Translations under genes and position numbers: made by a program | Assembly: GCA_011390885.1 (NCBI GenBank) | Contig: JAABRO010000003.1 | Span: 62,001-126,000 of the forward strand | Direction: 5' to 3' | Length of the DNA: 64,000 bases | DNA from: Gemmatimonas sp. | GTDB taxonomy: Bacteria; Gemmatimonadota; Gemmatimonadetes; Gemmatimonadales; Gemmatimonadaceae | The notes under the pieces: model-generated | Told to the model about the DNA's origin: nothing | The model's database searches: none | What the model saw: only the letters and a program-made list of their open reading frames with translations | Part shown: positions 6,092-49,324 of the stretch, piece after piece | How positions within the stretch are numbered: position 1 is the first letter of the stretch | Layout of the letters: each line of letters begins with the position of its first letter

Positions 6092-7498
6092 ATGACCACT
6101 CCCCAGACCTTCGATCTCATCGTGCTCGGCGGCGGCCCCGGCGGCTACGTCGCCAGCATCCGCGCCGCCCAGCTCGGCTTCACTGTGGCCTGCGTCGAGG
6201 CCGACGCCACGCTCGGCGGCACCTGCGTCAACGTGGGCTGCATTCCCAGCAAGGCGCTGCTCGCCTCGTCGGAGCACGTCGAATGGCTGCGGCTGCACGC
6301 CGCCGAACACGGCATCGCCGTGGACGGACTTCGCGTGGACCTCGGCGCGATGATGGCGCGCAAGACCGAGGTCGTGGCGCAGAACACCAAGGGCGTCGAG
6401 TTCCTCTTCCGCAAGAACAAGGTCACGTGGGCCAAGGGCTTCGGCACGCTCAAGGCCGGCAACGTGGTCGAGGTGCAGGCGGCCGACGGCAGCGTGAGCA
6501 CGCTGCAGGGCACGCATGTCATCATCGCCACCGGCTCGGTGCCGGTGCAGCTTCCGTTCCTGCCGTTCGACGAGACGCGCGTGCACTCCAACGTGGGCGC
6601 GCTCACGATCCCCGAGGTGCCGCGTCACCTGATCGTGGTGGGCGGCGGCGTGATCGGCCTCGAGCTGGGCTCCGTGTGGCGCCGCCTCGGCGCGAAGGTC
6701 ACGGTGGTGGAGTTCGCGCCCTCCATCCTCCCCGGCAACGACGACGACGTGATCCGCGAGGCGGACAAGATCTTCCGCAAGCAGGGGCTCGACATTCACG
6801 TGGGCACGAAGGTCGTGGGTGCCGACGTGCGCGCCGATGGCGTGACGCTGCACTGCAGCAAGGGCGAGGAGACGTTCTCCCTCGACGCCGACCACGTGCT
6901 CGTGTCGGTGGGACGCAAGCCGGCGCTGCGCGGTGTCGACGCCGCGGCGCTTGGCCTCACGCTCGGCGCGCGCGGTGAGGTGCTGGTCGACGATCAGCAG
7001 CGCACGAACCTGCCGAACGTGTACGCGATCGGCGACGTGACCGGCGGCAAGCTGCTCGCGCACAAGGCCGAGGAGGAGGGCGTGATCGCGGCCGAGGTGA
7101 TCGCCGGCAAGCCGGTGCACATGCACCAGCACACGGTGCCCGGCGTGGTGTATACCTGGCCCGAGATCGCCACGGTGGGGCACACCGAGGCCGAGGTGAA
7201 GGCGAGCGGACGCGCCTACCGCACGGGCAAGTTCCCGTTCAGCGCGAACGGGCGCGCGCGCACCATGGGCGAGACGAGCGGCTTCGTGAAGTTCGTGGTG
7301 GACGCGGAGACCGACGAGATCCTCGGCTGCCACATGATCGGCCCGAACGTCGGCGATCTCATGGCCGAAGTGGTGCTGGCCATGGAGTACCGCGGCAGCG
7401 CGGAGGACATCGCGATCACGGTGCACTCGCACCCGACGCTGTCCGAGGTCACCAAAGAGGCCGCGCTCGCAGCGATCGGGCGCGTGCTGCACATGTAA
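6092..7498 (+). CDS. lpdA: Dihydrolipoyl dehydrogenase (E3)
   Basis: E3 reoxidises dihydrolipoamide using FAD, a redox disulfide and NAD+, serving 2-oxoacid dehydrogenase complexes and possibly glycine cleavage. The 468-aa protein shows the FAD-binding GGGPGGYVASIRAAQLG (13-29), the redox pair in GGTCVNVGCIPSK (Cys45 and Cys50), the NAD-binding VVGGGVIGLELGSVW and YAIGDVTGGKLLAHKA. It also has the C-terminal VHSHPTLSE, whose His-Glu pair completes the partner subunit's active site. The ATG at 6092 is chosen because the Rossmann strand begins seven residues later; no clear Shine-Dalgarno is visible. It follows odhB by about 305 bp and may have its own promoter. Confidence 0.94.
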   Translation: MTTPQTFDLIVLGGGPGGYVASIRAAQLGFTVACVEADATLGGTCVNVGCIPSKALLASSEHVEWLRLHAAEHGIAVDGLRVDLGAMMARKTEVVAQNTKGVEFLFRKNKVTWAKGFGTLKAGNVVEVQAADGSVSTLQGTHVIIATGSVPVQLPFLPFDETRVHSNVGALTIPEVPRHLIVVGGGVIGLELGSVWRRLGAKVTVVEFAPSILPGNDDDVIREADKIFRKQGLDIHVGTKVVGADVRADGVTLHCSKGEETFSLDADHVLVSVGRKPALRGVDAAALGLTLGARGEVLVDDQQRTNLPNVYAIGDVTGGKLLAHKAEEEGVIAAEVIAGKPVHMHQHTVPGVVYTWPEIATVGHTEAEVKASGRAYRTGKFPFSANGRARTMGETSGFVKFVVDAETDEILGCHMIGPNVGDLMAEVVLAMEYRGSAEDIAITVHSHPTLSEVTKEAALAAIGRVLHM

Positions 7499-7513
7499 GT
7501 GTGGTGCGGGGTC

Positions 7514-7587
7514 GGCACCCGTGGGGTCGCCGGCCGCGTCAACTGCCGCTTCGCGACAGACACGCGGCCGGCGACCCCACGGGCGCC
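7514..7587 (+). repeat. Core-conserved long hairpin, copy H1
   Basis: Arms of 26 nt (7514-7539 and 7562-7587) pair with a single wobble and include a perfect 22-bp stem. They flank the 22-nt core 7540-7561 that begins CAACTGCCGC and ends GACAGAC. The core recurs almost unchanged at 29911 and, inverted, at 32828, whereas the arms do not. It starts 15 bp after the lpdA stop. Confidence 0.85.
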
Positions 7588-7649
7588 TCCCTCGGGGAAC
7601 GCGCGACGCCAGCACGCGCGTTCGCGCTCGCTGGTGACGGACGGAACGA

Positions 7650-22150: not shown

Positions 22151-22244
22151 GGCCAGACCGACTCACTGAGTACCGTGCACCGGGGCTGAAGCACCAGCAG
22201 GTCGATCGGCTGCGGTAAAGGGTCGTCGGTCCGTCGGTCTGGCC
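22151..22244. repeat. GGCCAGACCG/CGGTCTGGCC element, 94 bp
   Basis: It begins GGCCAGACCGACT and ends GTCGGTCTGGCC, so the terminal 11 bases are inverted repeats. The interior shares only short words (CACCG, CGATCGGCTGC) with other copies. It lies 47 bp after hemJ in a 299-bp gap in which no gene is seen. Confidence 0.75.
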
Positions 22245-22402: not shown

Positions 22403-23170
22403 ATGCCCCTCGCCGAGTCCGCCATCCTGCGCGCCCCGCGCGTGACCGTGCTGTCGCGTCCCGCGTTCACCGAGCCCGCGCACCTGCCGGTGCAGTGGAT
22501 GGGCGAGAGCACCGATGGCGAGCAGCTGGCCGAGTTCGCCGGCCGGCTCTGCTACATGTCGCAGCGCAACCCGGCCAACCGCAGCACGCGTGAGTACCTC
22601 GGCAACATCAAGAAGCAGGGGCACGGCAGCGTGCTGGAGCACGCGAACTACTCGCTGCTGTTCGAGGGAATCAGCCGTTCGCTGACGCACGAGCTCGTGC
22701 GGCACCGCGCGGGCTTCGCGTACTCGCAGCTGTCGCAGCGCTACGTGGACGAGAGCGACGCGTGCTTCGTGATGCCGCCGGCGATCATGGGCGACGCGGC
22801 GCTCGAAGCGGCGTGGACGACGCAGGTCGGTGCGGCGCTCGACAGCTACGTGGCGCTCGTGGACCAGCTCATGGACCGCTACGGCTGGGTGGACGACAAG
22901 GTGCACCGCCGGAAGATGGCGCGTGAGGCGGCGCGCGGCGTGCTCCCCAACAGCACCGAGACCAAGATCGTGGTCACGGGCAACGCGCGCGCCTGGCGCA
23001 CGATGCTGGAGCTGCGTTCGAGCGAGGGCGCCGAGTTCGAGATCCGTCGGCTCGCCATCGCGGTGCTTCGCGTGATGCAGGCCGAGGCGCCCGCCTTCTT
23101 CGACGACTTCTCCGTCTACATGGCCGCGGATCGGGCCGAGGCGGCGCGCGTGGAGTTTCACAAGGTCTGA
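22403..23170 (+). CDS. thyX: Flavin-dependent thymidylate synthase
   Basis: ThyX makes dTMP from dUMP using methylenetetrahydrofolate, FAD and NADPH, replacing ThyA. The 255-aa protein shows GHGSVLEHANYSLLFEGISR, the signature region LVRHRAGFAYSQLSQRYVDE (99-118) and ARGVLPNSTETKIVVTGNAR. The classical motif is RHR, seven residues, then Ser; here eight residues (103-110) separate RHR from Ser111, a one-residue insertion relative to M. tuberculosis ThyX. The downstream S-QRY residues are kept, so activity is expected. ATG 22403 is chosen over upstream frames because the alignment to the family begins soon after it. Confidence 0.9.
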   Translation: MPLAESAILRAPRVTVLSRPAFTEPAHLPVQWMGESTDGEQLAEFAGRLCYMSQRNPANRSTREYLGNIKKQGHGSVLEHANYSLLFEGISRSLTHELVRHRAGFAYSQLSQRYVDESDACFVMPPAIMGDAALEAAWTTQVGAALDSYVALVDQLMDRYGWVDDKVHRRKMAREAARGVLPNSTETKIVVTGNARAWRTMLELRSSEGAEFEIRRLAIAVLRVMQAEAPAFFDDFSVYMAADRAEAARVEFHKV

Positions 23171-23181
23171 TTGCGGTGTGG

Positions 23182-23302
23182 GGCCCCGGGTCGGTCCCGC
23201 CCCGTCGCGCCCAACTGCCGGCTCGGGCGCGCCGGGAGCGGGCGGGGGCCCGCCCGGCGCTGGCCGGCAGACGGCGCGGTGGGGCAGGACCGACCCGGGG
23301 CC
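23182..23302 (+). repeat. Core-conserved long hairpin, copy H4 (large-loop subtype)
   Basis: Thirty-nt arms (23182-23211 and 23273-23302; about 3 mismatches) flank a 61-nt core that starts CAACTGCCGG and ends CCGGCAGAC. The core itself folds into nested stems (CTGCCGG with CCGGCAG, then an inner GC-rich stem). It begins 11 bp after the thyX stop. Confidence 0.8.
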
Positions 23303-23491
23303 TCAGCCGGGGGGGGGACGTTGCGAGGAGGTCGCGCGCCTACACGGAGCTGGTCTCGCGCACTGGGCTCGGCGCCGAGGGGCAGTTCAGTGCGCGAGGC
23401 GAGAGGAGGCTGACGGCCCGGGGTTCGGTTGCCCCGGGCCGTTGCTGTCGGTGCGCCGGCAGGCGCGCCAGCGCCGCCTCCGGCCGAGTCT

Positions 23492-23617
23492 GGAGGGCCC
23501 GCGCGACGGGGTGGGAGCGCCGCGCCGTCTGCCGGCCAGCGCCGGGCGGGCCCGGCCCGCTCCCGGCGCGCCCGGGCCGGCAGTGGGCGCGAAGCCCCAC
23601 CCCGTCGCGCGGGCTCC
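23492..23617 (-). repeat. Core-conserved long hairpin, copy H5 (inverted relative to H4)
   Basis: On the minus strand the core reads CACTGCCGGCC...GGCCGGCAGAC, like H4 with one base missing. The arms (23492-23526 and 23586-23617) share an 18-bp perfect stem, CCCGCGCGACGGGGTGGG, unrelated to the H4 arms. It ends 10 bp before the first BlaI-type operator. Confidence 0.75.
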
Positions 23618-23707: not shown

Positions 23708-24094
23708 ATGGAGTCCGAGGTGTACTTCACGCCGAGAGAGCTGGACGTCATGAGCGTGCTCTGGCGCTGCGAGTCGGGAACCGTCGCGGAGGTGCGCGAG
23801 GCGCTCGACGAGCCCCTGGCGTACACGTCCGTGCTCTCCGCGCTGCAGACGCTCGAGGAGAAGGGGTTCGTGCGCCACGAGCCCGAGGGGCGCGCCTACC
23901 GCTACTTCCCCACCGTGGCCTCGGACATCGCCGGCTCGAGCGCGATCGCGCGCATTCGCGAGGCGATCTTCCAGGGCTCGGCCGAACGCCTGCTTGCGCA
24001 GCTCGTGAGTGACCGAGACGTACCGCGCGAGGAGCTCGAACGCATGCGTCGCCTGCTCGACGAGCGGCTGGGCGAGGGAGGGACGGCGCGATGA
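23708..24094 (+). CDS. BlaI/MecI-family transcriptional repressor
   Basis: A 128-aa dimeric winged-helix repressor. ATG 23708 is supported by the Shine-Dalgarno GGAGGAG just upstream. The winged helix is clear in FTPRELDVMSVLWRCESGTV, AYTSVLSALQTLEEKGFVRH and GRAYRYFPTVA; the C-terminal helical part (AERLLAQLVSDRDVPREELE) would dimerise and carry the proteolysis-sensitive site. The next gene encodes an M56 sensor protease and overlaps by 4 bp (ATGA), the standard BlaI-BlaR1 arrangement in which the protease inactivates the repressor. No beta-lactamase is adjacent, so the regulon is probably different. Confidence 0.88.
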   Translation: MESEVYFTPRELDVMSVLWRCESGTVAEVREALDEPLAYTSVLSALQTLEEKGFVRHEPEGRAYRYFPTVASDIAGSSAIARIREAIFQGSAERLLAQLVSDRDVPREELERMRRLLDERLGEGGTAR

Positions 24095-25674
24095 TCACCA
24101 CGCTCATGCTGTACGCGCTCGCGATCGGCGTGCTCGTGGCCGCCGGCGCGCTGGTGCTCGACCGGGCCGCACGCGCCGCGCGGATGCCGCAGCGCTTCAC
24201 CTGGATCGGGGCGCTCGCGCTGCTCGTCGCGCTCACCGTGGCCGCGCCGTGGCGCATGGCGCCTGCGCCTGCATCGCTCGCGAGTGACGCGCCGTCTGTC
24301 GCCATGCCTTCGTCCGCGATCGTGCTTCCCGACCTGCCGTGGCATCAGCAGCTGCTGTCGAAGACGCAGACGATGGTGCGGCAGGTCATCGGTGCCGTCG
24401 CCGAGCGTGTGCCGGCCCCGCTCGACCGCGCGATCGGAGTCGCTTGGGCCGGCGCGGCGCTCCTGCTGCTCGTCCTGCTCGCGCTCACGCTGCGCCGTCT
24501 CGATGCGCAGCGCCGTCGCTGGCCGCGAGCGCGCCTGCTCGACACGCCGGTGCGCGTGGGCGATCGCGAAGGGCCGGCCGTGTACGGTCTCTTCACGCCC
24601 GACATCGTGATTCCGCGCCGCCTGCTCGCCTGCAGCACGACCGAACAGGCGCTGGTGCTCGCGCACGAGGACGAACATCGTCGCGCGCACGATCCCGTGC
24701 TGCTCGCCGCGGCCGCCGCGCTCGTCGCGCTCGTGCCCTGGCATCCCGTGGCGTGGTGGTGCCTGTCGCGCCTTCGCCTCGCCACCGAGCTCGACTGTGA
24801 CGCACGTGTGCTGCGTCGTGGCGTGAGCACGCGCCGGTACGGCGAAGTGCTGCTCACGCTCGCCGCTTCGCTCCCCCCCGCCCCGCGCGCCGCCCATGCG
24901 CTCGCGCTGTTCGATTCCCGCCGCCACCTCGAACGGAGACTGCTCGCCATGACCACGCCCTTCACCCGTCGCTCCCCGTTCGCCGTCGGCAGCTTCGCCC
25001 TGGCCGGCGCGGTGCTGATCGCCGCCGCCTGCAACACCGACGTGCCCACGGCCGCCGAAGTGCGTGATGCCGACGTCGCCGCGGTCACGCAGACGCTCGG
25101 ATTGCCGACGGCGCCGGGGTCGGTCACGTACATCGTGGACGGCGCGCCGCTGTCGGAATCGCAGGCGCGCGCGATCGGCGCCGAGCGCATCGCGTCGATC
25201 GAAGTCGTCCGGGCGAGCGGCGCGGCGAAGGCGAACGAAGTGCGCATCACCACGCGAGAGGCCGCGGCGGCCCGGGGCACCGTCGAGGTGGTCGAGTTCG
25301 AGGGAGCCGCCGAGCCGAAGAAGGTGGCGTACACGGCGGCCCGTGCAGACTCGAACCGCGCACGCGTGCTGCTCCGCGCCGACGGCACGGCGGGCGACTC
25401 GGTGATCGAGGTGCCGGGCCGCATGGCCTACACCGTGGCGGACGCCACGGCCGAACGGGCCGGCGTCGTCGTGCTTCGCCCCTCGCGGGACAGCGCCGGA
25501 AGCCCCCAGCCGCTCGTGATCGTCGACGGCGTGATCTCGACCGCCCCGAACCCGCTGCAGAACATCAAGCCCGACCAGATCGAGAGCATCGAAGTCATCA
25601 AGGGGCCGGCCGCGCAGCGGCTCTACGGTGAGCGGGGCGCGAACGGCGTGATCAAGGTGACCACCAAGCCGTGA
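24091..25674 (+). CDS. M56 (BlaR1-type) sensor metallopeptidase fused to two TonB-plug-like segments
   Basis: A 527-aa membrane protease likely to signal to the BlaI repressor. N-terminal membrane helices and the M56 zinc site AHEDEHRRAHD (His192, Glu193, His196) with ATELDCDARVL downstream form the protease. After a further hydrophobic segment (about 297-313) the periplasmic part is not a penicillin-binding domain. It holds two copies of an IVDG...IxSIEV module: TYIVDGAPLSESQARAIGAE and IASIEVVRASG (about 346-380), then LVIVDGVIS and QIESIEVIKGPAAQRLYGE, followed by GANGVIKVTTK (to the end). These resemble the plug domain of SusC-type TonB receptors. The sensed ligand is unknown. Confidence 0.85.
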   Translation: MITTLMLYALAIGVLVAAGALVLDRAARAARMPQRFTWIGALALLVALTVAAPWRMAPAPASLASDAPSVAMPSSAIVLPDLPWHQQLLSKTQTMVRQVIGAVAERVPAPLDRAIGVAWAGAALLLLVLLALTLRRLDAQRRRWPRARLLDTPVRVGDREGPAVYGLFTPDIVIPRRLLACSTTEQALVLAHEDEHRRAHDPVLLAAAAALVALVPWHPVAWWCLSRLRLATELDCDARVLRRGVSTRRYGEVLLTLAASLPPAPRAAHALALFDSRRHLERRLLAMTTPFTRRSPFAVGSFALAGAVLIAAACNTDVPTAAEVRDADVAAVTQTLGLPTAPGSVTYIVDGAPLSESQARAIGAERIASIEVVRASGAAKANEVRITTREAAAARGTVEVVEFEGAAEPKKVAYTAARADSNRARVLLRADGTAGDSVIEVPGRMAYTVADATAERAGVVVLRPSRDSAGSPQPLVIVDGVISTAPNPLQNIKPDQIESIEVIKGPAAQRLYGERGANGVIKVTTKP

Positions 25675-26825: not shown

Positions 26826-26963
26826 CGCCCGCCACTCGCCCCCAGCCTTCGACTCCCCGCCCCGGGCCCCCGCGCCGAGCGACGAAGGGTTGCAGAACAG
26901 CGACGCCGGGTACTGCGTAGTGGGAGTGATGCAGGTCATTCCCCACCAACACGCAGGCATCCT

Positions 26964-29858
26964 GTGATCCGACCCCGCCCCACCCTCGCGCGGTCCGCGC
27001 GCCGCACCCTCGCCGCGCTCGCGTTCGCACCGCTCGCGGTCAGCGCACTCGCCGCGCAGCAGCTGTCCCTCGAAACGCGCGACCCCGCCCAGAAGCAGGA
27101 CGAGAGCTTCGAGAAGGCGTACAAGGAGTGGATCGTCGATCCACGCTTCGGCAGTCCGCTGGTGGACCACCTGCCCGTCGTCCCAGGCATTCCCATGCCA
27201 AAGGACATCCTCGGCTACCACATCGGCGCGCCGCGCACGCTCACCTACTACGCCGACCAGCTCAAGTACTACCGCGCCCTGGCCGCCGCGTCGCCGCGCG
27301 TGTCCATCGAGACCATCGGCACGAGCGATGAAGGGCGCGAGCTCGTGGTCATCTGGATCTCGAGCGAAGCCAACATGGCCAAGGTCGAGCAGAACAAGGC
27401 CAACCTCAAGAAGATCGCCGACCCGCGCGGCATGACCGAAGCGCAGGTCAAGGCGCTCATCGGGCAGACCAAGCCGCACTATCACTTCATGGGCGGCCTG
27501 CACAGCGGCGAGACCGGTCCGTCGGAAATGCTCATGGAGCTCGCGTACCGGCTCGCCACCGAGACGTCGCCGATCATCAACCAGATCCGCGAGCAGCTGT
27601 ACGTGTCGATCACCCCCGTGGCCGACGCCGACGGCCGTGACCGCAACGTGGACTGGTTCTTCCGCGGACTCGAGGTCGCCGACGCGGCGCGCGCACGCGG
27701 TGACAGCGCGACGCCGGCCGCGGGGCGCGGCATCGGCGCGGTGCCGTACTGGGGCAAGTACGCGTACCACGACAACAATCGCGACATCAACGTGGCGCTC
27801 GACCAGATGCGCGCGATCGTGGACTGGTACTTCACCGCGCATCCGCCGATCATGCACGACCTTCACGAGTCGCTGTCGCTGCTCTACACGTACAGCGGCG
27901 CGGCGCCGCAGAACCCCAACCTCGACCCCATCCTCTTCGCCGAACTGCCGTGGTTCGCGAACTGGGAGATGGCGCAGATGACCAAGTACGGCATGCCGGG
28001 CGTCTACACGCACGCCTTCATGGACGGCTGGTCGCCGGGCTACCTCGGCTCCGTGGCGTACAACCACAACGGCCTCATGAAGATGTACGAGACGCAGTCG
28101 GGGCGTGACCTCGACAGCGCGGCCGTGGCGCGGGCGCGCGCCGCGCTCGCAGGCGGCCCCACGCGGGCCAACGCGGCGGCGCAGGGTGCGGCGCGCGGTG
28201 GACAGGGTGGCGGCGGCTTCGGTGGTGGCGCGGGTGGTGTGCCCACGGGACGCGGCGGCGGACAGGATCGCGAGTGGTATCGCGGCATCCAGGTGGGCTT
28301 CAACGACGTGGCCAACTTCACGCGTCGTGCCAACACCAACTACATGCAGACCGGCGTGCTGTCGGCGCTGCAGCTCGCGTCGATGTTCCCGGCCACGATT
28401 CTCGAGAACTTCTACATCAAGACGCGCAACAGCATGGAAGCCGGCGCGAAGCAGGCGCCGTACGCGTACGTGATTCCCGTGCAGCCCGACATGACCAAGC
28501 CCGCCGAGCTCGTGCGCATTCTGCGCGTGCAGCGCATTGAAGTGGGCGTGGCGCGTGATGCGGTGAAGGTGGGTGATGTGACGTATCCAGCGGGCTCGTA
28601 TGTCATCAAGCTCAACCAGCCGTACGGCCGTCTGGCCAAGAACCTGCTCGAGAAGCAGAACTACCCCGATCCGCGGCTGCGCACCTACGACGACAGCGGC
28701 TGGAGCATGGGCTACGCGTTCGGCGTGGACGTGGTGCAGGTGGACTCGGCGTCGATCCTCAACGCGCCCGTCACGCCGGTCACCGAGGTGCGCCTCGCCG
28801 GCAGCACCAAGGGCAGCGGCACCGCGGCGCTCGCCGTGGCGCACTACGGCTCGAACAACATGATCTCGCTGCGCTACAAGCTGAAGGACGTGGCCATGCG
28901 CGTGGCCGAGAAGAGCTTCACCGCCGACGGCGTGGAGTTCCCGGCCGGCTCGTTCATCATCACCGACATGGCGGCGGCCGATCGCGTGAAGGCCGCGGTG
29001 GCGGAGCTCGGTCTCACGGCCGCGGCACTCGGCGCGGCACCCGTGGTGGCCACGCACGACGCCGTCGTTCCGCGCGTGGCGATCTACACGCAGTGGAGCG
29101 GCACGCAGAGTCTCGGCTGGTATCGCCTCACGTTCGACAAGTTCGGCGTGCCGTTCGAGCTGATCTACAAGGAACGCGTCATGCAGGGCAACCTGAAGAA
29201 CGACTACGACGTGATCCTCATGGCGGAGCAGAACCTGAGCCGGCAGACGGTCATGCAGCCCAAGGCCGCCACGCCGCTGCCGTACAAGAAGGACCCCAAG
29301 TACAAGTTCCTCGGCTGGTACGGCGAGACCGACGACATGTCGGGCGGCTTCGGCCAGCAGGGCGTGGACGCGTTCGCCGCCTTCCTCGAGGCGGGCGGCA
29401 CGCTGATCGCCGTGGGGGAGAGCGCGCGGCTCCCGATCGAGTTCGGCTGGGCGGGCACGGTGGACAAGACGCCGGTGCCGGGGCTCAACGCGCAGCGTCC
29501 GCTCGTTGAGGCCGAGGTGGTGAAGACCGACCATCCGGTGTTCTACGGCTACAACAAGAAGACGATCCCGGTGAAATACGTGGGCGGCACGCCGTTCAGC
29601 GTGGGCATCGCGAACCAGGGGAACGTGCTCGCGCGCTACGTGGGCGGTGACAAGTCGGTGCTGTCGGGGCTCATGCAGGGCGCCGACTCGATCAAGGCGC
29701 GTCCGTTCGCGGTGGACATCCCGAACGCGTACCGCGGCAAGGGGCGCGTGATCATGTTCGCGAACAACCCGATCTACCGGTGGCAGAACCACGGCGAGTT
29801 CAACATGATCTTCAACGCCGTGATCAACTGGAACGCGACGCCTGCGATGGTGCAGTAG
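26964..29858 (+). CDS. Secreted M14-family zinc carboxypeptidase, large form
   Basis: A 964-aa exported peptidase starting at GTG 26964. The signal peptide is RRTLAALAFAPLAVSALAAQ (about 13-32). The M14 zinc site is visible as GGLHSGETGPSE (His180, Glu183), with a later His in IMHDLHESLSLLY and a substrate-binding region around EGRELVVIWISSEAN. A Gly-rich insertion (GGQGGGGFGGGAGG, about 412-425) interrupts the catalytic region. The last 450 residues look like an extra alpha/beta domain of glutamine-amidotransferase-like shape (VLMAEQNLSRQ and AFLEAGGTLIAVGESARLP types of strands). Peptide scavenging in the periplasm or outside is likely. Confidence 0.85.
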   Translation: MIRPRPTLARSARRTLAALAFAPLAVSALAAQQLSLETRDPAQKQDESFEKAYKEWIVDPRFGSPLVDHLPVVPGIPMPKDILGYHIGAPRTLTYYADQLKYYRALAAASPRVSIETIGTSDEGRELVVIWISSEANMAKVEQNKANLKKIADPRGMTEAQVKALIGQTKPHYHFMGGLHSGETGPSEMLMELAYRLATETSPIINQIREQLYVSITPVADADGRDRNVDWFFRGLEVADAARARGDSATPAAGRGIGAVPYWGKYAYHDNNRDINVALDQMRAIVDWYFTAHPPIMHDLHESLSLLYTYSGAAPQNPNLDPILFAELPWFANWEMAQMTKYGMPGVYTHAFMDGWSPGYLGSVAYNHNGLMKMYETQSGRDLDSAAVARARAALAGGPTRANAAAQGAARGGQGGGGFGGGAGGVPTGRGGGQDREWYRGIQVGFNDVANFTRRANTNYMQTGVLSALQLASMFPATILENFYIKTRNSMEAGAKQAPYAYVIPVQPDMTKPAELVRILRVQRIEVGVARDAVKVGDVTYPAGSYVIKLNQPYGRLAKNLLEKQNYPDPRLRTYDDSGWSMGYAFGVDVVQVDSASILNAPVTPVTEVRLAGSTKGSGTAALAVAHYGSNNMISLRYKLKDVAMRVAEKSFTADGVEFPAGSFIITDMAAADRVKAAVAELGLTAAALGAAPVVATHDAVVPRVAIYTQWSGTQSLGWYRLTFDKFGVPFELIYKERVMQGNLKNDYDVILMAEQNLSRQTVMQPKAATPLPYKKDPKYKFLGWYGETDDMSGGFGQQGVDAFAAFLEAGGTLIAVGESARLPIEFGWAGTVDKTPVPGLNAQRPLVEAEVVKTDHPVFYGYNKKTIPVKYVGGTPFSVGIANQGNVLARYVGGDKSVLSGLMQGADSIKARPFAVDIPNAYRGKGRVIMFANNPIYRWQNHGEFNMIFNAVINWNATPAMVQ

Positions 29859-29880
29859 GCGGCGCTGCTCGTTGCTCGGG

Positions 29881-29962
29881 GGGCCGGCGCGACATCCGCC
29901 CCCGGCGCGTCAACTGCCGCTGCGCGGCAGACACGCGCCGGGGGCGGACGTCGGTCCGGCCC
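29881..29962 (+). repeat. Core-conserved long hairpin, copy H2
   Basis: Thirty-nt arms (29881-29910 and 29933-29962; 3 mismatches) enclose the 22-nt core 29911-29932, CAACTGCCGC-TGC-GCGGCAG-AC, which folds on itself as a 7-bp stem with a TGC loop. It starts 22 bp after the M14 peptidase stop. The remaining gap to 30068 shows no gene. Confidence 0.85.
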
Positions 29963-30068
29963 TTCGGCGTTCGGGGAGGGTGCCGGATGCGCGGGGGCGG
30001 GCGTCGCGTGACAGGATCAGGCTCCCTTCGGGAAGCACTGGCGTCAGCCGATAGGCGCCGTCACCGCG

Positions 30069-30551
30069 TCACCCTCGCCGTCCACAGGACGCCGAGTCTC
30101 CCGCTGTGACGGAGCGCACCACACCGATGCCCGAGGTCACGTAGGCCTTGACTACGAAGTGCTGGAACCCGCAGCCGCCCAGCATGGACTGTGAAATCAC
30201 GATCCGCCAGTCGCCGCCGGTCTTCTCAATCGACTTGACGGAGGACTGCACACAGCCCCCGGCGCGGACGTCACAGTACTGCTTCGCCTGCTCGAGCGTT
30301 TCGAACCAGCGGAGATCGCCAAGGCGCCGCTCCAACGCCTCCAGCGCAGTACCGTCGAGTCCGGCATCACGCCGAAGTTCGTCCCGCACCAGCACTCGTT
30401 GATTGACCTCGCTCACGGGCATGACGGCAATCGCAGCCGCTAGCGCCACCACCGGTTCGACTGACGGTGCGATCCCGCGCGCTGCAGGTCTTGCGCAGGC
30501 AGCGAACAGTACACTCACGCCGAGCGACGCGATCAGGAGCTGAGAACGCAT
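30069..30551 (-). CDS. Small uncharacterised lipoprotein
   Basis: A 160-aa product with signal peptide MRSQLLIASLGVSVLFAAC, lipobox FAAC at Cys19. The mature part has a helical region (LERRLGDLRWFETLEQAKQY) and five Cys residues (CDVRAGGC, GGCGF and a C-terminal Cys), which could form periplasmic disulfides. No family is recognised. Its start overlaps the 3' end of the upstream lipoprotein gene by 19 bp, so the two form an operon. Confidence 0.65.
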   Translation of the reverse strand: MRSQLLIASLGVSVLFAACARPAARGIAPSVEPVVALAAAIAVMPVSEVNQRVLVRDELRRDAGLDGTALEALERRLGDLRWFETLEQAKQYCDVRAGGCVQSSVKSIEKTGGDWRIVISQSMLGGCGFQHFVVKAYVTSGIGVVRSVTAGDSASCGRRG

Positions 30552-31819
30552 TGATCTGCCTTGCTGTATGGAAACGGATACGGCGGTGCGTTCACAAGCG
30601 GGTGGCCGGGATATTCCGGGTGCGCGTGCCACCCTTCATGCATCAACAGCCGCGCGACATTCGCAACTGGCTCCGTGAGGAAATCGGAGTCGATGTGAAT
30701 GATCCGTTTGTCACTCGACGTCTGTGCGTCATACACATCCTTGGGATCATCCGCGATACCTGAACTTCCCTTGTAGAGCCTCCGAGGACTTGCGAGCAGC
30801 CGCTGCAGGACCATCTGACTCGAAGCGAAGCAATCAGCATCGCTCGTGTTCACGAGCGCCATCCCAGCCATGATCTTGGTGACATCCGCCGACGTGAGGG
30901 TGTCCAGACACTTGGGGTGGCTGGTTGGGCAGTACAGACGCTCGTCTTCCGTCTGGAACGCAATCGTGTCCGCACACGCCGCCCCCCACCACGAATAGTC
31001 ATTCCCGCCGCTGCCCGGCGGCGTCACCGTCCCGTCGCCCAACGAATCGCCGGGCGTCGCCCCGCCGCACCCGTCGCCGGTCCCGCCGTCGCCGTCACCG
31101 TCGCCACTACCTGGCGGGTGATACGTGAGCGTCCCATTGCCGTTCAGCGAGAGCCAGCCGCCCCCCGAGCACTCCCACCCGCCCACGAGGCCCGCGGGCG
31201 TCGCCCCCACCGGGGTCGCGCGGGTGACCGACGCCGCGACGCCGTGGCGCGCACGGGTCGGCACGCGCGAGGCGAACATCGGGAAGCACGTCTGGTTGCC
31301 GCACGTCATCTCCAAGGTCACGACATCCAGCAGGCAGGTGGTGCCCGCCGTGATGGTCGCGAGCGGTGGGCGCACGGGAACCGTGGAGATCACCGCCGCC
31401 GTCGCGCCGGCGGTCGGCCGCGCGAAGAACGCGAGCGCGAATGCGCGCGCCGCCGCACCACGCCGCCGCACGCACTGCGCCTCGGCCGTCTGGTCGCCCG
31501 TGGCGCTGAACGTGTAGAGCTCGTAGCGGGTCAGCACCGTGTCGGCGGGACCGCGTGCGACGCTTACGCGCTCGGTCTGCGTCGGGCGCCAGCGCACGAA
31601 TGCGCCACGCGTGTCGCGTTCGACCGTGCGAAATGTGCAGGTGTTCTCGTTCGCCGGGATGGGCGCGAGGCGCTGCTCGAGCGCCAGCCCCGGCGCGAGA
31701 CTGTCCCGCATCAGCGACGGGTAGGCCACCCCAGGCGAGGTGACGGGCACGTCACCACTGCAGGCGGTGAGCAGGGCGAGGGTGAGCGCCCCCCCCGAGT
31801 CGTGCAAGAACGGACCCAC
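30533..31819 (-). CDS. Lipoprotein with HEGWH zinc-site motif; 5' end apparently out of frame
   Basis: The open frame from GTG 31819 gives 428 aa. The start region ALTLALLTACSGD contains a lipobox but lacks a proper basic n-region. The mature protein has a Gly/Asp-rich linker (GDGDGDGGTGDGCGG, about 250-264) and a C-terminal RLLMHEGWHAHPEYPGHP, an HExxH motif at 394-398 that suggests a metalloprotease-like domain, though the third ligand is unproven. A better start, ATG 31832 with Shine-Dalgarno GGAGGAG 5 bp upstream, lies in another frame and would rejoin this one if the G8 tract at 31789-31796 had seven bases. The protein would then begin MSARRGSVLARLGGALTLAL. See the separate tract entry. 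Confidence 0.65.
   Translation of the reverse strand: MGPFLHDSGGALTLALLTACSGDVPVTSPGVAYPSLMRDSLAPGLALEQRLAPIPANENTCTFRTVERDTRGAFVRWRPTQTERVSVARGPADTVLTRYELYTFSATGDQTAEAQCVRRRGAAARAFALAFFARPTAGATAAVISTVPVRPPLATITAGTTCLLDVVTLEMTCGNQTCFPMFASRVPTRARHGVAASVTRATPVGATPAGLVGGWECSGGGWLSLNGNGTLTYHPPGSGDGDGDGGTGDGCGGATPGDSLGDGTVTPPGSGGNDYSWWGAACADTIAFQTEDERLYCPTSHPKCLDTLTSADVTKIMAGMALVNTSDADCFASSQMVLQRLLASPRRLYKGSSGIADDPKDVYDAQTSSDKRIIHIDSDFLTEPVANVARLLMHEGWHAHPEYPGHPLVNAPPYPFPYSKADQCVLSS
31789..31796 (-). other. G8 homopolymer at the frame break of the lipoprotein gene
   Basis: Eight G on the minus strand lie within the signal-peptide codons. With eight, the well-positioned ATG at 31832 runs into a TGA after 25 residues; with seven, it continues into the 428-aa lipoprotein. 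Such tracts at signal-peptide positions are classic sites of slipped-strand phase variation, but a sequencing or assembly length error gives the same picture. Confidence 0.6.
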
Positions 31820-31832
31820 GTCGTGCGGACAT

Positions 31833-32221
31833 GCGTACTCCTCCCGATCGGTCCGTCAGTCCCCAAGCACTCGGTGCGGCAGGCCGGAACGTGAGGCGAC
31901 CGTGCAATCGTGCGCGCCGACGGCGCGGCACGATCGACGACCTGCCCACGGTACGACGCGGTGCTGTGAAGCGCAATTTCAAACGTCGCAAGCGAGCGCG
32001 ACCGTACGCATCCACTGACCATCCGGCAGTGCCATGCCCCGAAGCGCGCGGGCACCTATCCGACGCGTTGGCGTTCATGAGGGTGGCGGACTGCGCGTGC
32101 GCCGCCGTCGAGTCCCCGAGGCCGGTCCCGTTCGCCGCGCGACGGTCGCGCGCCGAAGCAGCGAGGGCACACCGGCAGTCGTCGAATGTCGACGCCTCGA
32201 TCCCCACCGCTTGAGCACCGC
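31833..32221. other. Divergent intergenic region without a supported gene
   Basis: Apart from the Shine-Dalgarno at 31838-31844 (minus), the only structure noticed is an imperfect hairpin, ATCGTGCGCGCCG (31907-31919) with CGGCGCGGCACGAT (31921-31934). Open frames here are Arg-rich and do not look like proteins. Promoters for both flanking genes must lie here but were not recognised. Confidence 0.4.
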
Positions 32222-32731
32222 ATGGCGTACTTCACGCATCGCTTCGACACGACGATCACCCGACACGCAGTCGGTTCGTACTACTACACCGTGGTCTACC
32301 TGCCTGACGCGATCGCCTGCACGCTCCCGTTCGCGCAGCACCCGCGATTGCGCATCGAAGCCGACGTGGGTGGCGTTCCGGTTACGGGAGCATGGCAGCC
32401 GGCGAAGGGCCTGTGGTACCTGATGCTCCCCAAGGCGGGGCTGAAGCACGCGGGGCTCACCATCGGCGATCACGTGGAGGTCGCGTTCCGGGTGATCGCG
32501 CAGGACGACGTGGACGTGCCCGCTGAGCTCGCGGACGCATTGGCACGTTCTGCGAAGCGGCGCAAGGCATGGACCTCGCACACCGCCGGCACGCAGCGCG
32601 GCCTCGCGCACTTCGTGGAATCGGCCAAGCGGGCCGAGACCCGGCAGAAGCGCCTCGACGCCGTGCTTGCCGCACTGGACGGCGCCGCCGACCTGCCGTG
32701 GGCACGGCGGGAGACTCACGGCCGACGCTGA
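32222..32731 (+). CDS. YdeI/OmpD-associated family protein with DUF1905-type N-terminus
   Basis: A 169-aa soluble protein from ATG 32222 (an in-frame ATG at 32186 is possible). The first 95 residues form a beta-rich DUF1905-like domain (VVYLPDAIACTLPFAQHPRL, GVPVTGAWQPAKGLWYLMLP). The C-terminal helices contain the YdeI-type segment RRKAWTSHTAGTQRGLAHFV and ESAKRAETRQKRLDAVLAAL. Members of this family have been linked to resistance to antimicrobial peptides in enterobacteria, but the mechanism is unclear and the role here is unproven. Confidence 0.75.
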   Translation: MAYFTHRFDTTITRHAVGSYYYTVVYLPDAIACTLPFAQHPRLRIEADVGGVPVTGAWQPAKGLWYLMLPKAGLKHAGLTIGDHVEVAFRVIAQDDVDVPAELADALARSAKRRKAWTSHTAGTQRGLAHFVESAKRAETRQKRLDAVLAALDGAADLPWARRETHGRR

Positions 32732-32796
32732 GCACCCACCCCGTCCTTAAGTCCGCGCGCGGCCCCCAGGCCCGCGCTTCACCCCCGCCGCCCGCA

Positions 32797-32880
32797 GGGC
32801 CGGCGCCGGGGTGCGCGGTCAGCGCGTGTCTGCCGCGCAGCGGCAGTTGACGCGCCGGCCGCGTACCCCGGTGCAGGCCC
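32797..32880 (-). repeat. Core-conserved long hairpin, copy H3 (minus orientation)
   Basis: The core 32828-32849, read on the minus strand, is identical to that of H2 (CAACTGCCGC-TGC-GCGGCAG-AC). The 31-nt arms (32797-32827 and 32850-32880) pair with about five mismatches and differ from those of the other copies. It lies between convergent genes, 12 bp beyond the stop of the EF-G-like gene on the same strand sense. Confidence 0.85.
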
Positions 32881-32892
32881 CGAGCACCGCAC

Positions 32893-34995
32893 CTACACCC
32901 CCGCGTCCTCGAGCTCGCGCGCGTGCTCCGCGATGATCTTCGACGCCGCATCGGGCGGCACCTGGTCGTACCCCGCGAACCGCCGCGTGTACGTGCCGCG
33001 CCCGTGCGTCATGCTGTGCAGCGGCGTCGCGTACAGGTGCAGCTCCGCCTGCGGCACCATGGCGCGCACCACCGTGTGCCGGCCGTCCCCCGCCGGCTCG
33101 GTGCCATGAATGTGCCCGCGCCGCGCGCTCACATCGCCGAGCACGTCGCCGAGGAACTCGTCGGGCACGCGAATCTCCAGCAGGTCGAGCGGTTCGAGCA
33201 GAATGGGCCGGCACTTGGGCGCCACCGCCTTGAACGCCAGGATGCCGGCCATCTTGAACGCCATTTCGTTCGAGTCCACCGAGTGCGTGCTGCCGTCGTA
33301 GCACTCCACGCGGAAGTCCACGAGCGGGAACCCGCCCAGCACGCCGCGCGCCGCCGCCTCCTGCACGCCACGGTCCACCGCAGGCACGTAGCGCGACGGA
33401 ATCACGCCGCCCACGATCCTGTTCTCGAACAGGTAGCCCTCGCCGCGCGGCAGCGGGGCCATGCGGATCCAGCAGTCGCCGAACTGCCCGCGTCCGCCCG
33501 TCTGCTTCTTGTGCTTGCCCTGCCCCGAATCGCTCGCCGTGATCGTCTCGCGATACGCGATCTTCGGACGCGTGAGCTCGGCCTTCACGCCGTACTTGCG
33601 CTGCAGCGTGGCCATCGCGATGTCGAGGTGCCGCTCCCCCATGCCGCTCACGATCGTCTCGTGCGTCTCGGGCTCGTAGTGCACCGAGAGCGTGGGGTCC
33701 TCCTCGTGCAGCCGGTGCAGCCCCTGCTGCAGCTTCTCCTCCTCGTTGCGCGACTCGGCGTGCACCGCGAAGTGCACCAGCGGCTCGGGAAACTGCAGCT
33801 CCGGCAGGCGAATCGGGTGCTCGCGCGTAGACAGCGTGTCGTTGGTGTGCGTGTTGCGCAGCTTGGCCACGCAGGCGATGTCGCCGGCGTGCACGTGTGG
33901 CACCTCCACGCGCTCGCGCCCCAGCGGCAGCGACACGTGGTTGAGCTTCTCCGTCGTGTCGCGCGTCGCGTTGTACACCTCGGCGCCGTTCGACACCAGG
34001 CCGCTCAGCACGCGGAAGAAGCTCACCTCGCCCACGTGCTGCTCGTTCATGGTCTTGAACACGATCGCCGCGAAGGGCGCGTCGTCGCGCGCGTGGATCT
34101 CCACCGTGTCGTTCCCTTCGGCACCGCGGAACGCGTGGATCTCCTCCATCTCGAATGCGTTGGGCATGAGCTGCACGATCTCGGTGAGCAGCGCGCGCAC
34201 GCCGATCATGCTCTCCGCGCTCACGCAGAAGAGCGGGAACAGGTCACCGCGCTTCATCGCCTCCTTCATCCCCTCGATGGCCTCGTCACGCCCGATCTCG
34301 GCGCCCTCGAGGTAGCGCTCGAGCAGCGTGTCGTCGGTGGCCGAGATGGCCTCGATGAGCTCCTGGCGATAGCGCGTGAAGCGCTCCATGTCGGCGCCGG
34401 GAATGTCCCGCTCCTCGTACTCGCCGTGCGCGCCCGCGGCGTACATGTACGCCTTCTGCGTGAACAGGTTGATCACGCCGCGAAAGTCGGCGCCGCTGCC
34501 GATGGGAATCTCCACCGGGACGACCTTGGCCGTGAGCTGGTCCTTCACCTGCGCGTACACCGCATCGAAGTCGGCCGACTCCTTGTCCATCATGGACACC
34601 GCGAAGAGCACCGGGTCCTGGCGCTCCACCGCGAGCCGGAACATGCGATCGGTGCCCACCTCCACGCCGCTCACGGCGCTGATCACGCACAGCGCGCCGT
34701 CTGCCGCGCTCAGGCCAGCCAGCGCCTCGCCCTGGAAGTCGAGCGCGCCCGGCGTGTCGATGAAGTTGATCTTGCTGTCCATCCACTCGGCGTGGGCGCA
34801 GGCGAGCGAGATGGAGAAGCCCCGTTCGATCTCCTCGGGCGTGTGATCGGTGAGGGCCGTGCCGTCCTTCACCTGGCCGTGGCGCTTGCCGTTGCCGGCG
34901 GCGAAGCAGAGCGCGTCGACGAGACTCGTCTTGCCGCTGCCGCCGTGGCCCACCACGGCCACGTTCCTGATGCCTTTGCTGTCGTATTCCCGCAT
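32893..34995 (-). CDS. EF-G-like translational GTPase (EF-G2 type) with altered G motifs
   Basis: A 700-aa paralogue of elongation factor G. ATG 34995 is supported by GGAGGG just upstream. The P-loop is GHGGSGKTS (16-24). Switch II reads DTPGALDF, so the catalytic His of EF-G (DTPGHVDF) is Ala84. The guanine-specificity motif NKxD reads SMMD (134-137). Domain II, the split domains (HTNDTLSTREHPIRLPELQF), domain IV (TGGRGQFGDCWIRMAP, SVDSNEMAFKMAGILAFKAV) and domain V are complete. This looks like a ribosome-binding EF-G homologue with weak or unusual GTPase behaviour, not the housekeeping translocase. The 650 bp upstream hold its promoter and two repeat elements. Confidence 0.85.
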   Translation of the reverse strand: MREYDSKGIRNVAVVGHGGSGKTSLVDALCFAAGNGKRHGQVKDGTALTDHTPEEIERGFSISLACAHAEWMDSKINFIDTPGALDFQGEALAGLSAADGALCVISAVSGVEVGTDRMFRLAVERQDPVLFAVSMMDKESADFDAVYAQVKDQLTAKVVPVEIPIGSGADFRGVINLFTQKAYMYAAGAHGEYEERDIPGADMERFTRYRQELIEAISATDDTLLERYLEGAEIGRDEAIEGMKEAMKRGDLFPLFCVSAESMIGVRALLTEIVQLMPNAFEMEEIHAFRGAEGNDTVEIHARDDAPFAAIVFKTMNEQHVGEVSFFRVLSGLVSNGAEVYNATRDTTEKLNHVSLPLGRERVEVPHVHAGDIACVAKLRNTHTNDTLSTREHPIRLPELQFPEPLVHFAVHAESRNEEEKLQQGLHRLHEEDPTLSVHYEPETHETIVSGMGERHLDIAMATLQRKYGVKAELTRPKIAYRETITASDSGQGKHKKQTGGRGQFGDCWIRMAPLPRGEGYLFENRIVGGVIPSRYVPAVDRGVQEAAARGVLGGFPLVDFRVECYDGSTHSVDSNEMAFKMAGILAFKAVAPKCRPILLEPLDLLEIRVPDEFLGDVLGDVSARRGHIHGTEPAGDGRHTVVRAMVPQAELHLYATPLHSMTHGRGTYTRRFAGYDQVPPDAASKIIAEHARELEDAGV

Positions 34996-35302: not shown

Positions 35303-35396
35303 GGCCAGACCGACATACCGACGACCGGCGACTGCAGCCGACCGACCCGCGGGTATTTCGGCAACGGTAGGCGGTACCCGGTCGGTCGGTCTGGCC
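35303..35396. repeat. GGCCAGACCG/CGGTCTGGCC element, first of a tandem pair (94 bp)
   Basis: It begins GGCCAGACCGAC and ends TCGGTCTGGCC. It belongs to a longer near-identical direct duplication: 35277-35410 and 35420-35553 (each 134 bp) match except for scattered substitutions. The interior includes GCGACTGCAGCCGACCGAC and CCCGCGGGTAT. The whole gap 34996-35653 has no supported gene. Confidence 0.85.
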
Positions 35397-35445: not shown

Positions 35446-35539
35446 GGCCAGACCGACGTACCGACGACCGGCGACTGCAGCCGACCGACCCGCGGGTATC
35501 TCGGCCACGGTACACGGTACCCGGTCGATCGGTCTGGCC
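35446..35539. repeat. GGCCAGACCG/CGGTCTGGCC element, second of a tandem pair (94 bp)
   Basis: Same length and ends as the copy at 35303, 143 bp downstream. The shared GGCCACGAGCGC on the left and TTCGCRACCTTCGG on the right show that flanking sequence was duplicated with the element. Confidence 0.85.
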
Positions 35540-49087: not shown

Positions 49088-49109
49088 AAGTGCACCGACG
49101 GGTCGCTTC

Positions 49110-49200
49110 GGCCAGACCGTGTACGGATGACCGTCGACCGGAACCGACTGACCCGCGGGTAGATGGCAGCAGTGCACGGTACCCGGTGAACGGTCTGGCC
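49110..49200. repeat. GGCCAGACCG/CGGTCTGGCC element, second of a tandem pair (91 bp)
   Basis: Same length and interior as the copy at 48997, with an intact right end CGGTCTGGCC. The rest of the gap to 49324 shows no gene. Confidence 0.85.
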
Positions 49201-49324
49201 GAGTGCGAGATCGCGTTCGCCGGCCAGCACCGCGTGCTGCGCTACGCCCCCATCACTCAAGACCTGACGCCGGCGTCCGATACCCTGAGGGGAAGCGGTC
49301 CGGTCTGCCCGGGCCGGCCTGCTC

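Follow-up and report, generated by a model that had tools for sequence, protein, structure and literature searches.

The window, a stretch of 64,000 nucleotides on the 128-kb contig C3 of the source Gemmatimonas genome (G000; 95% complete; 4.07 Mb), contains five long hairpins (H1-H5) with a common apical module, (C)CA(A)-CTGCCG...CGGCAG-A(C/A). H1 (7507-7594, plus strand) has a short apex and lies 9 bp past the stop codon of lpd, which encodes dihydrolipoyl dehydrogenase (6092-7498). H2 (23175-23308, plus strand) has a long apex and lies 5 bp past the stop codon of thyX (22403-23170). H3 (23494-23617, minus strand), also with a long apex, is inverted relative to H2 and is antisense to blaI (23693), 76 bp upstream of this gene. 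The BlaI-type repressor gene is adjoined by a gene for an M56 peptidase of the BlaR1 type, the C-terminus of which carries a TonB plug/SusC-signature domain (24091-25674). Upstream of the M14 peptidase gene (26964-29858) is a hairpin remnant on the minus strand (26855-26876) that consists of an outer half-arm only, the rest being deleted in G000. H4 (29876-29967, plus strand; short apex) is located 18 bp past the stop codon of the same gene and is faced by H5 (32795-32882, minus strand; short apex), which is 11 bp past the stop codon of the EF-G gene (32893-34995, minus strand).

An earlier sequence-only reading of this DNA had described five long hairpins with a common core, and all five were confirmed. 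The core is CAACTGCCG...CGGCAGAC, with variants CGACAGAC in H1 and CCACTGCCG in H3. Two subtypes among the hairpins had been left unseparated. In H1, H4, and H5, the apex is a hairpin of 17 nt, CTGCCG-CTGCG-CGGCAG (with variant bases in H1), flanked by the internal loop CAA/AC, whereas that of H2 and H3 is a conserved stem of about 55 nt behind the same CTGCCG/CGGCAG closing pairs. Elements with the short apex are about 90-110 bp in size and those with the long apex 120-150 bp. From the base upward, the family has a conserved end (approximately TTGGTGCnCGGGGCC / GGCCCTGCGGGC), a variable stem of 25-35 bp, and a conserved apex in which the internal loop is fixed, 5'-CA(A) / A(C,A)-3', and borders CTGCCG/CGGCAG. 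The stems of H1-H5 measure 30-40 bp, and their arms vary by site, yet each arm pairs with its own partner. Predicted folding energies range from -65 to -135 kcal/mol.

Copies, Relatives, and the Palindrome-Rich Region

The source genome carries at least eight copies of the family (about eight in 4.07 Mb), all on C3, rather than the many genome hits that the sequence-only reading had named as support for a structured element. A covariance model built from H1, H4, and H5 matched only these three in G000. BLAST with H2 recovered H2, H3, and a second inverted pair beside leuS (C3:37974, plus strand; C3:38199, minus strand), and the eighth member, which has a different variant of the apex, came from a scan for hairpins (C3:4304-4412; counterpart in G004 at C45:194325). 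Four relatives of the same genus carry copies as well, at orthologous sites. Altogether, 36 copies were tabulated in these five species of one Gemmatimonas genus, and among those of the relatives is a third type of core, subtype B (GGGCTTGCCACTGCCG...CGGCAGAAGCCGCCC). An assembly artifact was rejected because independent assemblies carry hairpins at identical sites. Two outcomes had been named that would count against a structured element whose core is constant and whose arms covary, namely a search returning these copies alone and arms that fail to covary among orthologues. Neither occurred, as further copies were found and the arms of orthologues do covary. The description as a structured element proved right.

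The family is restricted to one genus. A second covariance model, based on 17 short copies, was run against 298 genomes of the phylum representing 119 genera and matched this genus alone, with no family member found in the 118 other genera sampled. A search for the core pattern covered 84,980 genomes and a viral collection; among the 112 matches examined, complementary arms forming a hairpin were present only in this genus. The hairpins have no match above the gathering score in Rfam, and no prior description of the family was found in the open-access literature.

The whole C3/C45 region is a palindrome hotspot. Fifteen long hairpins (score of at least 18) are located on the 128-kb C3, compared with five in 536 kb of other G000 contigs, a roughly 12-fold excess; therefore, the family is not background. 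The G004 counterpart, C45, is similarly rich, and several unrelated palindrome families are present. One of these (GGCCAGACCGAC...GTCGGTCTGGCC) occurs at 22151-22244, 35303-35396, 35446-35539, and 49108-49202 of the window, partly in tandem, and has a related copy on another contig (L289:6131-6273), so that it is not confined to the C3 region. Further long inverted-repeat families with loops of 60-100 nt (CAGCTCCGCAGCTGG...; GGCTCGCTGGGCTGGGCGAAGGGGTCAG...CTCACCCCTCA) differ between G000 (C3:6303-16590 and 34049-34256; L216, L217) and G004 (C45:67205-197437; L221-L224, L028, L243). In addition, G042, from another genus of the family-level lineage, has its own dispersed palindromes of the type AGCGGGGGGAACACAGA.../...TCTGTGTTCCCCCCGCT (L251-L270). 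The regional excess and the coexistence of unrelated families would fit a neutral hotspot, in which local replication or repair makes this neighborhood gather palindromes and the hairpins have no function of their own. However, a neutral hotspot alone would not be expected to yield a conserved module at the apex or, across five species, an oriented position at the edges of genes, and we consider this explanation very unlikely. A location at the replication terminus was also rejected, as the region has no dif-like site and no consistent GC-skew switch, the skew being inconsistent between G000 C3 and G004 C45. The lack of these two marks likewise speaks against the neutral hotspot.

Placement at Gene Edges and Gain or Loss of Copies

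The copies share common descent, are retained at orthologous positions, and have an oriented placement at gene edges. Orthologous hairpins follow lpd in G000, G002, and G004, and they follow both the M14 peptidase gene and the EF-G gene in G000, G001, G003, and G004. The thyX-blaI interval is flanked by hairpins on both sides in G000 and G004, where the H2 orthologue is at G004:C45:102842-102972. Other sites are upstream of genes, namely blaI, leuS, and the M14 peptidase gene. Among the seven G000 copies with mapped flanks, five begin in sense orientation 5-22 bp past a stop codon, and the remaining two, namely H3 and the copy at leuS, lie in antisense orientation 50-80 bp ahead of a start codon. 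Additional antisense copies upstream of genes occur in the relatives, including those upstream of the M14 peptidase gene. The sequence-only reading had placed the starts of four hairpins 11-22 bp from a stop codon, which is roughly correct for H1, H2, H4, and H5 (5-18 bp as recomputed), with H3 being the antisense copy upstream of blaI. Such strict gene-edge placement and orientation at orthologous positions suggest selection for function.

In the other species, too, the counterpart of the C3 region contains most of the copies. Within several intergenic regions of G000, G002, G003, and G004, copies form facing (inverted) pairs, and single copies occur too. The spacers inside these pairs are alike only among orthologues; a larger mobile unit with a conserved spacer was accordingly rejected. 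Copies have been both gained and lost. The hairpin upstream of the M14 peptidase gene, of which G000 retains the half-arm described above, is complete in G003 and G004. Neither a target-site duplication nor a clean empty site was found; at icd, the empty-site analysis found the other species unalignable downstream, and the G000 contig match stops within icd.

The M14-EF-G interval between H4 and H5 (window 29968-32794; L030:8866-13420; L037:3131-4031) is an insertion hotspot. Its gene content varies, and its length ranges from 0.37 kb in G004 and 2.8 kb in G000 to about 4.5 kb with a third hairpin in G003. In G001 and G003, it contains a DJ-1/PfpI-like gene that has a hairpin of its own behind it. 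Variable gene content between two hairpins is what would be expected if the family were a folded single-strand recombination site resembling integron attC and swapping genes between hairpins. Consistent with this, the fold is conserved while the stem sequence varies, extrahelical bases are present, the sites follow coding sequences, and G000 encodes an integron integrase (C18:22493-23095; L237, L249; TIGR02249, 382 bits against a cut-off of 265). However, paired R boxes (RYYYAAC/GTTRRRY) at both ends are found in none of 31 copies, no family hairpins are present within 20 kb around the integrase, and copies face each other in inverted pairs instead of forming a directional array. Furthermore, the flanked genes are syntenic housekeeping genes, and the apex is conserved, whereas the terminal structure of attC sites is variable. 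Identity with attC was rejected on the lack of R boxes, although IntI is encoded in the genome, and a recombination site of attC-like nature has, in our judgment, only a small probability.

Arm Pairing at the DNA or RNA Level

That each left arm pairs with its own right arm, as had been claimed, was borne out by stem scores in 23 copies, which averaged 22.7 for own arms (a mean lowered by one mis-anchored copy, H3 of G000) and 8.1 +/- 4.2 for swapped arms. In a gap-free alignment, the covariation score was 0.514 compared with 0.137 +/- 0.019 after shuffling, and it reached just 0.07-0.20 when registers were slid. Two-sided arm changes numbered 89, compared with 30.4 in shuffles. Individual sites illustrate these changes. 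The variable tract of H3 exists in three versions, GCGCGACGGGG / GCGTGGTGGGG / GCGCGGCGGGG in G000 / G004 / G002, each of which is matched by an exact complement in the right arm, and half-way states are absent. At H4, G000 and G004 have different arms, with length changes that correspond between left and right, while the surrounding 3.2 kb are 91% identical, and the H4 orthologues of G001, G003, and G004 also have different arms. Copies on G004:C22 resemble H5 of G004, and one G004 copy is a chimera, with its left arm from one copy and its right arm from another. These near-identical copies and the chimera show that the hairpin element gets copied. Covariation beyond chance does not by itself separate selection on RNA from copying of one arm onto the other.

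The nature of stem mismatches bears on this distinction. If the fold of the sense RNA were under selection, isolated mismatches in the stems should be G.U more often than A.C. The family has eight such mismatches of the G.U type and 21 of the A.C type (8 and 20 with related copies collapsed), an A.C excess that could partly reflect one conserved mid-stem mismatch. Ordinary hairpins at gene 3' ends of G000 have 30 G.U and 13 A.C, and the two spectra differ (Fisher p = 0.0007), but this contrast is indicative and not final because the stems of the control set were shorter and had been located with a simpler finder. Folding energies are the same on both strands (-101.5 and -101.8; Wilcoxon p 0.76), and a T-run of four or more follows the stem in only one of 36 copies. 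Given the lack of a G.U preference, unlike in ordinary 3'-end hairpins, the arm complementarity looks to be a DNA-level and not a sense-RNA-level property.

These observations weigh on the possibility that the family is a structured RNA of mRNA 3' ends, either an unusually long intrinsic terminator or an RNase barrier, with a protein-binding apical bulge and kept by selection on the RNA fold. The sense copies just past stop codons agree with this, as do the presence of hairpins at identical genes in several species, the very stable folds, and the strong covariation. The EF-G 3' ends of other genera also often have long hairpins, although these are unrelated and the family core is absent from them. 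Examples from other Gemmatimonadota genera are L183, L181, L176, and L174, some of which are composed of short tandem words such as GCGGATGAGCGGAT... The family resembles intrinsic terminators and 3'-end stabilizing hairpins in being GC-rich and located just past stop codons, but it differs from them in having a 30-40 bp stem, a conserved apex, no T-tract, and no tolerance of G.U pairs. In addition, H3, the leuS copy, the copies upstream of the M14 peptidase gene, and others are antisense and upstream of genes, and the carrier genes are few and clustered on one contig. We therefore regard an RNA element of mRNA 3' ends as unlikely. The sequence-only reading had proposed such a role from the proximity to stop codons, which stands for five of the seven mapped G000 copies; the two antisense copies, the missing T-tract, and the missing G.U preference speak against it. 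The data agree better with the other possibility raised in that reading, namely that the two arms are kept alike by a copying mechanism.

A Proposed Dispersed Palindromic Element and Its Possible Mechanism

The explanation that we favor, while giving it slightly less than an even chance, is a dispersed palindromic DNA element that is REPIN-like, RAYT-less, and specific to the genus, the arms of which regain their match through template switching or are replaced wholesale. REP, BIME, and REPIN elements are mobilized by RAYT (TnpA-REP) transposases (PMC3116915, PMC8266576). The family shares with them extragenic GC-rich palindromes, often near gene ends, that form a hairpin with a bulge, and it is likewise found as inverted pairs (doublets), non-autonomous, and lineage-specific. 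However, it has about eight copies and not hundreds, these are confined to one region, the stems are longer, and it is the apex that is conserved and the stem that varies. The RAYT/Y1 transposase domain (PF01797) also has no match in the 95%-complete G000, while 5 of 14 control genomes were positive, and identity with RAYT-mobilized REP elements was rejected on this absence. No conserved gene linked to the copies was found that might encode another mobilizing protein. These absences count against the favored explanation, as do the low copy number, the missing target-site duplication or clean empty site, and the strict placement and orientation at gene edges. Mitochondrial repetitive and double hairpin elements (RHE/DHE; PMC2800124) are similar in being dispersed intergenic hairpins that are thought to be mobile and have no known transposase. 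The present family differs in being bacterial, very GC-rich, and retained at orthologous sites, with much longer stems, and the likeness is a resemblance only.

Under the favored explanation of a REPIN-like element, the family would have spread as a non-autonomous element, mostly locally or regionally, probably through a single-stranded hairpin with an apical bulge recognized by some protein. Its arms would be kept complementary at the DNA level and not through selection on the mRNA fold. One route would be template switching between the arms at the short inverted repeat of the core, that is, quasi-palindrome correction; mutation by template switching at quasi-palindromes is an established process (PMC3820800). 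Alternatively, whole arms may be replaced. An incidental role of the hairpins as mRNA 3' blocks is possible, as a hairpin that borders a stop codon probably also acts as a barrier to read-through or 3' exonucleases, and this side effect may account for its retention. A bolder version, which we consider doubtful, is that the family represents an undescribed class of bacterial palindromes, in which the constant apical hairpin serves for snap-back priming or recognition and each arm is rewritten time and again as the exact complement of the other, such that pairing would result from copying and not from RNA selection.

Covariation is routinely taken as proof of a selected RNA structure. This family combines very strong covariation with a mismatch spectrum unlike that of sense-RNA selection, and it can therefore tell a selected fold apart from mutual copying of the arms. 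It provides a natural test case of how genomes keep palindromes self-complementary, in the form of a compact, genus-restricted palindromic element without a recognizable transposase that is found largely in one chromosomal neighborhood across five species.
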